A stretch of 56,566 bases of DNA from Bacteroidota bacterium (lineage in GTDB: Bacteria; Bacteroidota; Ignavibacteria; UBA10030; BY39), in contig JASEGV010000010.1 of NCBI GenBank assembly GCA_030017895.1, positions 1 through 56,566 on the forward strand, in the 5' to 3' direction. The notes under the pieces are model-generated. The model made no database searches. It was not told the DNA's origin and was given only the letters and a program-made list of their open reading frames with translations. A program made the translations under genes and the position numbers. How positions within the stretch are numbered: position 1 is the stretch's first letter; each line of letters starts with the position of its first letter. Positions 29,599 through 33,294 of the stretch are shown here, in pieces.

Positions 29599-30549
29599 AT
29601 GATAACTATCGATGATGTTGATAACGCATATTCGATTTTAAAGAATGTTGTTCACAAAACGCCGATTCTAAAATCTAGCACATTCAATAAAATAGTTGGT
29701 GTTGATGCTTACTTTAAAGCCGAAAACTTTCAGAGAATCGGAGCGTTCAAAATTCGGGGCGCTTACAATAAGATTGTATCGCTTTCACAAAAAGAAAGTG
29801 ATGCGGGCATAGTCGCACACTCTTCTGGTAACCACGCACAAGGTGTTGCATTAGCCTGTAAGTTATTGAAAATAAAGGCAGTTGTGGTTATGCCTGTAAA
29901 TTCAGTTCAAAGTAAAATTGAAGCTACAAAATCGTACGGTGCCGATGTGGTTTTCTGCGGTGAAAATACCGACGACCGGCAACGAATGACCGACGAGTTG
30001 ATTTATAAGTTCGGATATACACTCGTTCCACCTTATGATGATGAAAAAATTATTGCTGGACAGGGAACGACAGCGATAGAAATTTTTGATGATTTAAAAG
30101 ATTTAGATTATCTGTTCGTTCCAATTGGAGGTGGTGGCTTGATTTCGGGATGCAGTATTGTGGCAAAGCATTTATCACCCCGCACAAAAGTAATCGGAGT
30201 TGAAACCGAGGGAGCGAATGACTGCTATCAATCGTTCAGAGAGAAGCGACTTATAAAACTCACATCCACAAACACGATTGCAGACGGAATGCGAACTCTG
30301 AGCGTCGGCAAACATAATTTTGAAATTATTATGAAATATGTTGACGATGTAATTACAGTTTCTGATGAAGATGTTATAACGATGATGAAATTTTTCTTTG
30401 AAAGAATGAAAATTGTAGTCGAGCCGACAGGAGCAGTCGCACCGGCGGCAGTGATGAAAAATGTTTTGGGTTTGAAGAATAAGAAAGTTTGTGCAGTAAT
30501 AAGCGGGGGAAATGTGGAAACTGAAATGTTTATTAAGTGGATTACTTGA
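29599..30549 (+). CDS. Threonine/serine dehydratase, short PLP type
   Basis: 316 residues, a fold-type II PLP enzyme. The Schiff-base Lys lies in RIGAFKIRG, the phosphate-binding Gly loop is VPIGGGGLISG, and SSGNHAQGVALA is the substrate Asn region. It has no C-terminal ACT-like regulatory domain, so it resembles the catabolic (TdcB-like) form that converts threonine to 2-oxobutyrate and ammonia, or serine to pyruvate. Serine or threo-3-hydroxyaspartate as main substrate cannot be excluded. A strong GGAGG site lies 5 bases before the ATG. The gene begins directly at the stop of the ABC ATPase and is likely in the same operon. Confidence 0.88.
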   Translation: MITIDDVDNAYSILKNVVHKTPILKSSTFNKIVGVDAYFKAENFQRIGAFKIRGAYNKIVSLSQKESDAGIVAHSSGNHAQGVALACKLLKIKAVVVMPVNSVQSKIEATKSYGADVVFCGENTDDRQRMTDELIYKFGYTLVPPYDDEKIIAGQGTTAIEIFDDLKDLDYLFVPIGGGGLISGCSIVAKHLSPRTKVIGVETEGANDCYQSFREKRLIKLTSTNTIADGMRTLSVGKHNFEIIMKYVDDVITVSDEDVITMMKFFFERMKIVVEPTGAVAPAAVMKNVLGLKNKKVCAVISGGNVETEMFIKWIT

Positions 30550-30558
30550 AAAAAATAT

Positions 30559-30587
30559 TTGTTAAATACAAGAAATCTTGTTATAAT
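30559..30587 (+). promoter_or_regulatory. Promoter with operator-like dyad in its spacer
   Basis: TTGTTA (30559-30564), 17 bases, TATAAT (30582-30587). The spacer contains the palindrome ACAAGA-AA-TCTTGT (30568-30581), placed where a bound repressor would block RNA polymerase. It precedes the three-gene toxin-like operon by 27 bases, which suggests self-regulation as in toxin-antitoxin systems. Confidence 0.6.
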
Positions 30588-30614
30588 TAAACGCAAAGTA
30601 TTGAATGTCCGAAT

Positions 30615-31346
30615 ATGAACAGAAAATATAAAAATCCGCCTATTGTAGAAGCACTATGTGAAATTCAATTTATTTCTGAAAAACCATGGGATTTAACTAT
30701 TCCTGGGCTTTTCTACGAGAAAGTTAAAGAACTGTTCCCAATAAGAGAACAACAATTGGGCATAGGTGTACTATTTAAACCGACTCAAACAGGTATCGAA
30801 CATAAAATTGAACAAGCTCCACCTCGGATGCAATTTTTTAAGACCGATAGAAGTGCACTAATTCAAGTTGCTCCCGATTTACTTGTAATTAACCAATTAA
30901 CACATTATCCGACATGGAGCAAATTCAAACCTACTATTATTGAAAATCTCGATATTTACAACAAAATTGCAAGTCCGAAATCTGTTAAGAGAATTGGATT
31001 AAGATACATAAACAAAATAATTTTTGCAAAAGAATCTATTGAGCTAAGTGAATACTTTGAATTATTTCCTAATGTGCCAAGAGAATTACCACAATCACAA
31101 ACTGATTTTACCATACGACTCGAAATACCATATTTAGAAAATGATAGAATGCTTATAACTCTGGGTAAATCTTATCCCAAAAATAACGAAGGTGTATCTA
31201 TTATTCTTGATCTGTATTATATATCTTTCAATCAAGAAAGTATAAATATAGAAAATTTTAGTAATTGGCTTGAGCATGCGCATGGTTCGATTGAAACAGC
31301 TTTTGAAGCGTGCCTAAAAGACAAAACAAGAATAAGTTTCAACTAA
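30615..31346 (+). CDS. TIGR04255 family protein
   Basis: 243 residues. The N-terminus (KYKNPPIVEALCEIQF) and the middle (RIGLRYINKI) match the TIGR04255 family, whose members are of unknown function and often sit in accessory regions. There is no signal peptide or membrane segment, so it is cytoplasmic. It is the first gene of a compact three-gene unit ending in a PIN-domain toxin, with gaps of 7 and -4 bases. In this position it might act as the antitoxin or regulator, but no DNA-binding motif is obvious. Its low GC content differs from the neighbouring housekeeping genes. Confidence 0.85.
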   Translation: MNRKYKNPPIVEALCEIQFISEKPWDLTIPGLFYEKVKELFPIREQQLGIGVLFKPTQTGIEHKIEQAPPRMQFFKTDRSALIQVAPDLLVINQLTHYPTWSKFKPTIIENLDIYNKIASPKSVKRIGLRYINKIIFAKESIELSEYFELFPNVPRELPQSQTDFTIRLEIPYLENDRMLITLGKSYPKNNEGVSIILDLYYISFNQESINIENFSNWLEHAHGSIETAFEACLKDKTRISFN

Positions 31347-31353
31347 TTAAAGA

Positions 31354-31707
31354 ATGACAGAGTATTTACCATATAATCATTCAATAATTGATAACGTGAA
31401 AAATTTCGATTTTTCACTTATACAACCTTACAATTACAAATGTAAAAAAACCGAAGAAAACTTTTTCGAATGTTATTCCACTACAATAACCCACGATATT
31501 GGATTCAAGCTATTCCAAGAAATTTTTGAATCAAATAATATTTCCATAAATCCTTTAGATATACAATTACAAGAATTGACAGAATTAAGATTGATCATAG
31601 TAAAACTCAATGTTCTGAATGAAGTCTTTGGAATTTTTCAAGGTTTAACCGAAGAACAAAGTCAAACATATGAACAATCCTCTAAAAGAAGACCGTTTTT
31701 TGGATGA
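31354..31707 (+). CDS. Unknown protein, candidate antitoxin partner of the PIN toxin
   Basis: 117 residues, no family recognised. There is no signal peptide. The sequence is acidic and polar, with a central amphipathic helix (QLQELTELRLIIVKLNVL) and a polar, Gln/Arg-rich tail ending in KRRPFFG. It is 7 bases after the TIGR04255 gene and overlaps the toxin gene by 4 bases (ATGA), the arrangement typical of antitoxin-toxin pairs. It does not look like the AbrB, RHH or Phd/YefM antitoxins usually paired with VapC. It may belong with the TIGR04255 protein as a two-part neutraliser. Confidence 0.6.
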   Translation: MTEYLPYNHSIIDNVKNFDFSLIQPYNYKCKKTEENFFECYSTTITHDIGFKLFQEIFESNNISINPLDIQLQELTELRLIIVKLNVLNEVFGIFQGLTEEQSQTYEQSSKRRPFFG

Positions 31708-32105
31708 CGTATGTTCTAGATACAAATATCATTTCTGCGTTACTCAGAGGAAATGCAAATATTAAACAACGCATAGAAAGCATCACAATTACTGGACATA
31801 AAATAGTGATAAATGCAATATGTTACTATGAGGTTAAACGGGGGTTATTAGACGCTAATGCAACAACACAAATTAAGTATTTTGATAAGTTTTGCGAAAC
31901 GTTTGGCCTAACCTTGCTCGATAGGAAACAAATTTTTGAGGAAGCTTCTTATCTTTATGCAAATCTTAAGAAACAAGGTAAATTAATAAATGATGCAGAT
32001 ATTTTAATTGCTTCATCGACAAAGATTGATAAGTGTATCCTTGTAACAAACGATTCAGACTTTCAAAGAGTCGTTGGCTTAAAAGTAGAAAATTGGCTCG
32101 ATTAA
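31704..32105 (+). CDS. VapC-like PIN-domain ribonuclease toxin
   Basis: 133 residues. The PIN active-site acidic residues are present: Asp6 (YVLDTN), Glu in YYEVKRG, Asp in INDADILIA, and Asp in VTNDSDF. VapC toxins cut tRNA or rRNA and are held inactive by a co-expressed antitoxin. The gene overlaps the upstream 117-residue frame by 4 bases, so it is translationally coupled. An operator-like dyad in the promoter at 30559-30587 fits a self-regulated unit. No standard VapB is present. Confidence 0.88.
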   Translation: MTYVLDTNIISALLRGNANIKQRIESITITGHKIVINAICYYEVKRGLLDANATTQIKYFDKFCETFGLTLLDRKQIFEEASYLYANLKKQGKLINDADILIASSTKIDKCILVTNDSDFQRVVGLKVENWLD

Positions 32106-32131: not shown

Positions 32132-33274
32132 TTAAAAATACTTCCTCAAATTAAACTCACTCTCTATTTTCAAATCTACCTCATCGACTAACATTCTCTC
32201 ACCATCAAATTCTCTTAAAGCGACTAATGGGCTTAAATCTCCGACTTCAAAAAGCATCGGTGTGTCAGTCGTGTGCGTATCAACCTGATACGAAATTCCT
32301 AAATCAGCCGGAGTCGTTTGTCCGTTTTGATATCTGATCAGAACATTACGAATTATTAAATCGTAAGCACGTTCGGAGTTACCGGGAAGTTTTTCGTAAA
32401 GCGAAATGTCTGCATTCGTATATGTTCCCGAGACAATAGCATAAAAAGCCGACAGCAATCCCACCGTATTCAACTTCCGTATAAAAAATTTTTCTGGGTC
32501 GCCAATACTATGTCCCGACTCAATTAAAACCGTGCTTGTTCCCCACGTTTGAATGCTATCCCCAAAAGCACGTGGTTCGTAGCCATCGTCGTATCGGGTT
32601 ATTTTTCCGGGAATAATTTCCATCATTTTTTCGGTAAGAAATGCGGCAAGTTTTTTTGCCCGGAGTCGCACCTTGTTATCCGATTTTTCTTCGTCCATCG
32701 CTGGAGCCAAAAAAGCGATTGCCGATATTTCTCTAGTTCCTTTTACAGTACTTAATTCCTGATCGTGCAGATTAAATCCATAATCGGGTTGATACTCATT
32801 CTGAATTTCCTTTAACAATCGTGCTTCGGGAGTTACAAGTGCAACTGCATCGCGATTTATATCGATACACTGAGCTGTTCGCCGCTGATACCGCGCCGCG
32901 CCATCGGGATTGAGCAGTGGTATGAATAACAACGAAAGCTTTGAAAGAAGTTCTTGCACCCCTTGTCTATCCGAAAATTTTGCAAAGTAATTGAATATAT
33001 CTGCAATTGCCATAGTCGCTGTCGATTCATCGCCGTGCATCTGCGACCAGAGTAAAATTTTAATATCTCCACTCCCGACTTTTATCAATCGGATTGGTCT
33101 CCCTTCAAACGATTTTCCGATTTCTTTTAGATCAAAAATTTTCGGAGCTTGCCTGATAATATTATCGGCAACGCTGTTAAAAAACTCGGGAGCAAACATA
33201 CGCGTCTGAAAATCGTTTACAAAATATGAATTGTATGTTGAAAATAATTTTTCTGTTATTTCATTCTGCCACAT
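32132..33274 (-). CDS. M14-family zinc carboxypeptidase
   Basis: About 380 residues. The metal motif HxxE appears as MHGDEST, followed by NPDGAARYQRRT and DINRD (substrate binding), the third ligand His in FNLHDQE, and the catalytic Glu in VLIESGHS. No signal peptide is seen, so it may be cytoplasmic and act on peptides or cell-wall fragments. The ATG at 33274 is preferred to a TTG at 33286. It lies 20 bases after rseP and is probably the last gene of the dxr-rseP transcript. Confidence 0.88.
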   Translation of the reverse strand: MWQNEITEKLFSTYNSYFVNDFQTRMFAPEFFNSVADNIIRQAPKIFDLKEIGKSFEGRPIRLIKVGSGDIKILLWSQMHGDESTATMAIADIFNYFAKFSDRQGVQELLSKLSLLFIPLLNPDGAARYQRRTAQCIDINRDAVALVTPEARLLKEIQNEYQPDYGFNLHDQELSTVKGTREISAIAFLAPAMDEEKSDNKVRLRAKKLAAFLTEKMMEIIPGKITRYDDGYEPRAFGDSIQTWGTSTVLIESGHSIGDPEKFFIRKLNTVGLLSAFYAIVSGTYTNADISLYEKLPGNSERAYDLIIRNVLIRYQNGQTTPADLGISYQVDTHTTDTPMLFEVGDLSPLVALREFDGERMLVDEVDLKIESEFNLRKYF

Positions 33275-33294
33275 CTCAAATCCCAAATTAGAAT

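Follow-up and report, generated by a model that had tools for sequence, protein, structure and literature searches.

In omega-epsilon-zeta systems the genes follow the order regulator, antitoxin and toxin, and omega is a small ribbon-helix-helix repressor. A tripartite precedent with exchangeable antitoxins is offered by the TAC modules (PMC5105189, PMC6377645, PMC11618068), in which antitoxins from unrelated families are protected by a SecB-like chaperone by way of a C-terminal extension that is transferable (PMC5105189, PMC6377645). One of them, CmdTAC, has a role in phage defence, and its CmdC frees the toxin when a phage capsid protein competes for CmdC (PMC11618068). In addition, HEPN-T proteins (PF05168) have been reported to cluster with restriction-modification operons (Anantharaman et al. 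2013, PMC3710099). The cassette described here comes closest to TAC modules such as HigBA-SecB(TA) of M. tuberculosis and CmdTAC, which it resembles in its three genes, its shared third protein and its matched exchangeable pair, but the shared protein, a member of the TIGR04255 family, whose function is not known, is about 245 aa long, did not have SecB among its listed fold matches here and comes first in the gene order. It is also like VapBC in having a VapC-like PIN protein with its acidic residues and a small gene that overlaps it upstream, and differs from VapBC in lacking a canonical VapB DNA-binding domain and in carrying an extra conserved first gene.

The cassette lies in a stretch of 56,566 nt from a Bacteroidota bacterium (hereafter, the window), and its features are listed in Table 1. 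As the sequence-only reading had noted, the genes are packed, with a gap of 7 nt between the first and the second and an overlap of 4 nt between the second and the third, all three ORFs being on the same strand. None of the three proteins matched PADLOC-DB up to an E value of 1.

Table 1. Features of the TIGR04255 cassette and its surroundings (positions in the window).
Feature	Position	Strand	Remarks
Left flank, threonine dehydratase-like	29599..30549	+	named by eye from sequence
Sigma-70-like promoter TTGTTA-N17-TATAAT	30559..30587	+	10/12 consensus positions
Perfect 6+2+6 dyad ACAAGA-AA-TCTTGT, in promoter spacer	30568..30581		at chance
TIGR04255 family protein, first gene	30615..31346	+	243 aa; constant partner in the cassettes
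Middle protein, proposed antitoxin	31354..31707	+	117 aa; C-terminal end RRPFF
Proposed PIN-binding tail of middle protein, residues 66-117	31549..31704	+	by analogy with PIN-B
PIN-domain (VapC-like) ribonuclease, proposed toxin	31704..32105	+	133 aa
Right flank, M14 carboxypeptidase-like	32132..33286	-	named by eye from sequence

The first protein is a full-length member of NCBIfam TIGR04255 (sporadTIGR04255; 145.6 bits, cut-off 30, E 2.2e-42), the match spanning 239 residues and profile positions 1-251 of 252, and it belongs to no Pfam family. The third matched the PIN family (PF01850, 47.1 bits; cut-off 23.6), its nearest solved structures were VapC toxins (for example 6nkl, E 1e-8), and the acidic residues D6, E43, D97 and D99 were invariant in an alignment of four sequences (the window's and three relatives), so that both fold and conserved acidic residues are those of a VapC-like PIN protein. 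With the model for tRNA(fMet)-specific VapC (NF047863) it scored 67.1 bits, below the cut-off of 140. The 117-aa protein between them reached no family threshold in Pfam, NCBIfam, PADLOC or PHROGs, its best domain match (AF2212-like, E 0.044) being below the cut-off, and none of the known VapB DNA-binding domains (RHH, AbrB, Phd, HTH) was found in it with Pfam and NCBIfam, which bears out the earlier remark that no standard VapB is present. Its AlphaFold2 model was poor (pLDDT 51), with a helical C-terminal half and a low-confidence N-terminal half that is probably flexible.

To find out how this arrangement is distributed, a conserved neighbourhood was searched for, as had been proposed. TIGR04255 has a sporadic distribution, being present in 24 of the 395 genomes examined in the phylum, and a scan of 84,980 species, with one genome each, yielded 80 relatives with 30-62% identity in hosts that belong to many bacterial phyla and to the methanogenic archaea. 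The next gene was codirectional in 72 of the 77 complete loci, and in 69 it lay within -20 to +20 nt; a third gene was present in 65 and within 20 nt in 57. The more distant relatives from the phylum sample displayed the same layout, and a 4-nt overlap was common among them. The window's own trio was carried by two Nitrospirota (L041 and L044), one Spirochaetota (L042) and one Chloroflexota (L043), with middle proteins of 118-122 aa and PIN proteins of 133-135 aa. Since the same proteins recur in this layout in other phyla, the three-gene arrangement goes beyond chance. The description of the locus as a toxin-like operon is also supported. The genome itself harbors a second cassette (L005, G000:C21:11985-12713), in which a TIGR04255 paralog of 35% identity precedes genes for a protein of 158 aa and a HEPN-like protein of 126 aa. 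In L042, the PIN gene (L042:4970-5371) was split into two ORFs, with TIGR04255 and the middle gene undamaged, which is what one would expect if the harm comes from the PIN protein.

The third gene was not the same throughout. It encoded HEPN proteins (about 36 loci), PIN proteins of three kinds, DUF7689, MazF/PemK, a zeta toxin or unnamed families, those of HEPN, PIN, PemK and zeta being toxin families already known, and Pfam confirmed HEPN (PF05168), PIN, DUF7689 (135 bits) and PemK/MazF (50 bits), as well as the zeta toxin (PF06414) that ends the cassette of a Vibrio plasmid. When middle and third proteins of the 77 loci were clustered by BLAST, the clusters coincided: HEPN with 42 and 36 members, respectively, PIN-B with 10 and 7, DUF7689 with 7 and 6, and the window's class, which we call PIN-A, with 5 and 5. 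Thus, as in type II systems, a small gene just upstream of the toxin is inherited with it, as seen in the 4-nt overlap and the matched clusters, and, as in TAC modules, one protein is common to unrelated toxin-antitoxin families (PIN, HEPN, DUF7689, PemK and zeta). In a maximum-likelihood tree of TIGR04255, PIN-A formed a single clade (96/89) within a mainly HEPN group, and the class changed 8 times along the tree, compared with 26.7 in shuffles. Therefore, the toxin-antitoxin pair has been exchanged on a constant TIGR04255, and only rarely. Considering that TIGR04255 stays the same while antitoxin and toxin are swapped as a pair, it is probably a third partner that controls the toxin. The conserved neighbourhood with a small partner and a toxin thus provides the function hint that had been expected for this family, of which, like DUF7689, we found no mention by name in the open-access literature searched (other literature may differ). 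The HEPN class of these cassettes matches PF05168, lies partly inside restriction operons and appears to have D at the motif histidine, as reported for several HEPN-T proteins (PMC3710099). However, that work deals mainly with nucleotidyltransferase partners and does not contain the term TIGR04255, and in the present cassettes HEPN comes after TIGR04255 and a partner of another kind.

The sequence-only reading had left open whether the antitoxin was the 117-aa protein, TIGR04255 or both. The middle gene is the likely antitoxin because the pairs switch together and because the tail of the PIN-B middle proteins also ends ordinary antitoxins. These proteins are 71-84 aa long and share a tail of the form SILELxGLGKEVWxGIDAxxYIDxLRNEWD, which was likewise found at the end of two-gene antitoxins directly upstream of a PIN gene with no TIGR04255 nearby (L157, L158, L160 and L162). 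One of these pairs (L157) shares its genome with the TIGR04255 cassette L069, and the N-termini, examined by eye, were ribbon-helix-helix-like in L162 and another domain in L158 and L160. The simplest reading of these sequences is that the PIN-B tail neutralises PIN and that, in the cassettes, a head linked to TIGR04255 has taken over from the usual N-terminal domain. In PIN-B, then, the exchanged part would be the N-terminal head of the antitoxin, in contrast to the chaperone-addiction (ChAD) extension of TAC, which is C-terminal. Of the two candidates, the middle protein is thus the favoured one, and TIGR04255 is most likely a third partner rather than the antitoxin. For the window's protein, close relatives (33-36% identical) were found only between TIGR04255 and PIN in L041-L044, with an invariant KRRPxF C-terminal end and with residues 66-117 as the best-conserved part of the alignments. 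Since searches of 247 genomes and of plasmids recovered this tail from TIGR04255 cassettes alone, the antitoxin role of the 117-aa protein is borrowed from PIN-B, and we infer it from that class. In plasmids, searches with the PIN-B and MazF tails found nothing.

We also looked for a docking motif common to the middle proteins. An EM search over 20 class representatives gave a score barely above the best shuffle and driven by within-class pairs; a scan of the PIN-A alignment ranked an S-T-x-V-T segment first with a combined Z of 2.6, about that of the best of some 110 alignment windows by chance; and a fixed pattern was present in 3 of 64 proteins (0.5 expected), belonging to two classes only. 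These candidates were rejected. In L119, TIGR04255 carries a 120-aa extension and is followed by no separate middle gene. This extension, which had no detectable similarity to any middle protein, may represent a fusion of TIGR04255 with a middle protein, the sole hint of contact among the three proteins.

The AlphaFold2 model of TIGR04255 (pLDDT 90.5, pTM 0.86) depicted an alpha/beta protein with two halves in which strands and helices succeed one another in much the same way, and no internal repeat was detected in the sequence (hhalign probability 0.3%). A clear known fold was rejected, as the PDB searches gave only middling scores. The best Foldseek matches were S-adenosylmethionine decarboxylase (E 6e-4) and the TATA-binding protein, TBP (E 1.6e-3, probability 0.98, TM 0.30), with TM values of about 0.3, and the best in VIA-align were guanidino kinases (Z 9.1, rmsd 4.2, 185 residues aligned), TBP ranking lower (Z 6.4, rmsd 6.0, 160 aligned). 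The best viral match was an unnamed protein (E 1.7e-8). On the basis of this model, the matches do not indicate a function. SecB was absent among the PDB matches listed, which does not by itself exclude a likeness to SecB, and for this reason a chaperone role for TIGR04255 would rest on analogy.

Three other explanations were considered for these results. That the locus is a VapBC pair of the ordinary kind, which an unrelated gene happens to precede, is hardly credible: relatives of the PIN protein were indeed seen in ordinary two-gene pairs that lack TIGR04255 (L126-L130), but the trio is conserved in three other phyla and 69 of the 77 TIGR04255 genes have a similar partner, and we dropped this reading on account of that conservation. 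It is unlikely, albeit worth weighing, that TIGR04255 is a trans-acting transcriptional autoregulator, comparable to omega in omega-epsilon-zeta, of a toxin-antitoxin pair in which the antitoxin no longer has a DNA-binding domain of its own. The gene order is the same and one relative ends in a zeta toxin, in most of the middle proteins scanned no DNA-binding domain could be recognised, and the TIGR04255 model weakly resembles TBP. However, TIGR04255 is a 245-aa alpha/beta protein with no recognised DNA-binding domain, the TBP match is under the level that the tool treats as telling, and an Acinetobacter middle protein already has a helix-turn-helix, yet TIGR04255 is kept. The upstream sequences also speak against it. 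The promoter and the perfect dyad within its spacer are present as first described, the promoter ranking first among 5 promoter-like sites of the region, a number not above that of shuffles (8.7 +/- 3.2), but when the 65-nt segment was dinucleotide-shuffled, 24.5% of the shuffles contained a dyad of equal quality, and dyads were not enriched in the 100 nt upstream of the relatives (14 of 76, compared with 17.0 in shuffles). Because the dyad is not above chance either locally or in relatives, the case made for an autoregulated operator loses its support, and no conserved operator dyad was found at the promoter among the 76 relatives checked.

The third explanation is drawn from the genomic contexts. 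In a sister genome (G001), the flanking genes, 90% (left) and 89% (right) identical at the DNA level, stand side by side with an unrelated spacer of about 230 nt and no cassette between them, and this empty site identifies the cassette as accessory. Among the 85 codirectional ORFs that flank the relatives, the commonest Pfam families were, in raw counts, ResIII (9) and N6_N4_Mtase (8), and PADLOC called type III and type II methyltransferases most often. Some cassettes were within type III or type I restriction-modification operons, flanked by methylase and restriction genes (for example L049, L059, L061, L099 and L119): going by gene names assigned by eye, L049 and L061 have the order methylase, cassette and Res, and type I genes flank both sides of L099. 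Moreover, TIGR04255 adjoins the CI repressor in the temperate Pseudomonas phage VW-6S (L040), and in a viral contig (L124) TIGR04255 and two small genes precede a portal-like gene. These restriction and phage contexts would fit a TIGR04255 that acts as an infection sensor (in abortive infection or as a restriction guard) and holds a preformed antitoxin-toxin complex, with phage or a failure of restriction as the trigger and antitoxin stability being secondary, and in PrrC there is a precedent for a restriction system that holds an RNase (PMC3710099). We regard this as rather improbable in that form, since most cassettes, including that of the window, are not beside restriction genes and no known sensor domain was found, although such a role is largely compatible with the explanation that we prefer.

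That explanation, to which we give an even chance, is a tripartite toxin-antitoxin (or abortive-infection) cassette made up of a PIN toxin, a 117-aa antitoxin and TIGR04255 as the third partner. It is built on what the sequences display, namely the gene order, the exchangeable middle and toxin pairs, the antitoxin-like tail of one PIN class, the empty site and the contexts. The PIN protein would be an RNase toxin whose active site is blocked by the C-terminal tail of the 117-aa protein, and the N-terminal part of the latter would take the place of the DNA-binding or dimerisation domain of ordinary VapB proteins and dock on TIGR04255. As a shared third partner and not a toxin-specific antitoxin, TIGR04255 would stabilise or load the antitoxin and would probably sense the trigger, much like the SecB-like chaperones of TAC modules, so that loss of its contact with the antitoxin would release the toxin. 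In this way, what annotation pipelines call a "TIGR04255 family protein" acquires a function that can be put to the test: in bacteria and archaea, and on plasmids and in phages, it would be the unvarying member that accompanies toxin-antitoxin pairs which are themselves exchangeable. Somewhat more tentatively, TIGR04255 could define a new and widespread class of tripartite toxin-antitoxin or anti-phage systems, with a non-SecB control of swappable pairs (PIN, HEPN, MazF, zeta, DUF7689 and several undescribed toxin families) through binding of the antitoxin head, many of them restriction guards. If the role proposed for TIGR04255 is right, there would be a second, SecB-independent route to three-part toxin control, toxin guards would be nested inside restriction-modification operons, and the unnamed third-gene families would be candidate new toxins.

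Several further families were observed along with these cassettes. DUF7689 (PF24738) occupied the toxin position in L080, L091, L095 and L099-L101, and its conserved Cys and His suggest, as a guess from the motif, a papain-like hydrolase. In L163, a protein with a PIN-B-like antitoxin tail was followed by a minimal nucleotidyltransferase-like gene in place of PIN. The Acinetobacter and Robbsia plasmids (L038 and L039) carried a middle protein with a helix-turn-helix and an unnamed third gene of about 270-285 aa. An unnamed family with L-E-Q-G-D-I-x-x-x-C-P close to its start and a length of about 180-200 aa was encoded after the TIGR04255 cassette genes in L056, L059, L065 and L119, and perhaps in L011 and L013, and its gene directly preceded a type III Res-like gene in L059 and L119. 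Finally, the third genes of L002, L010, L020 and L021 encoded a candidate new toxin family, as yet unnamed and about 120-180 aa long, in which the motif H-x-N-I-x-G/N-W-P is conserved and often accompanied by W-D-x-Y-G-A.
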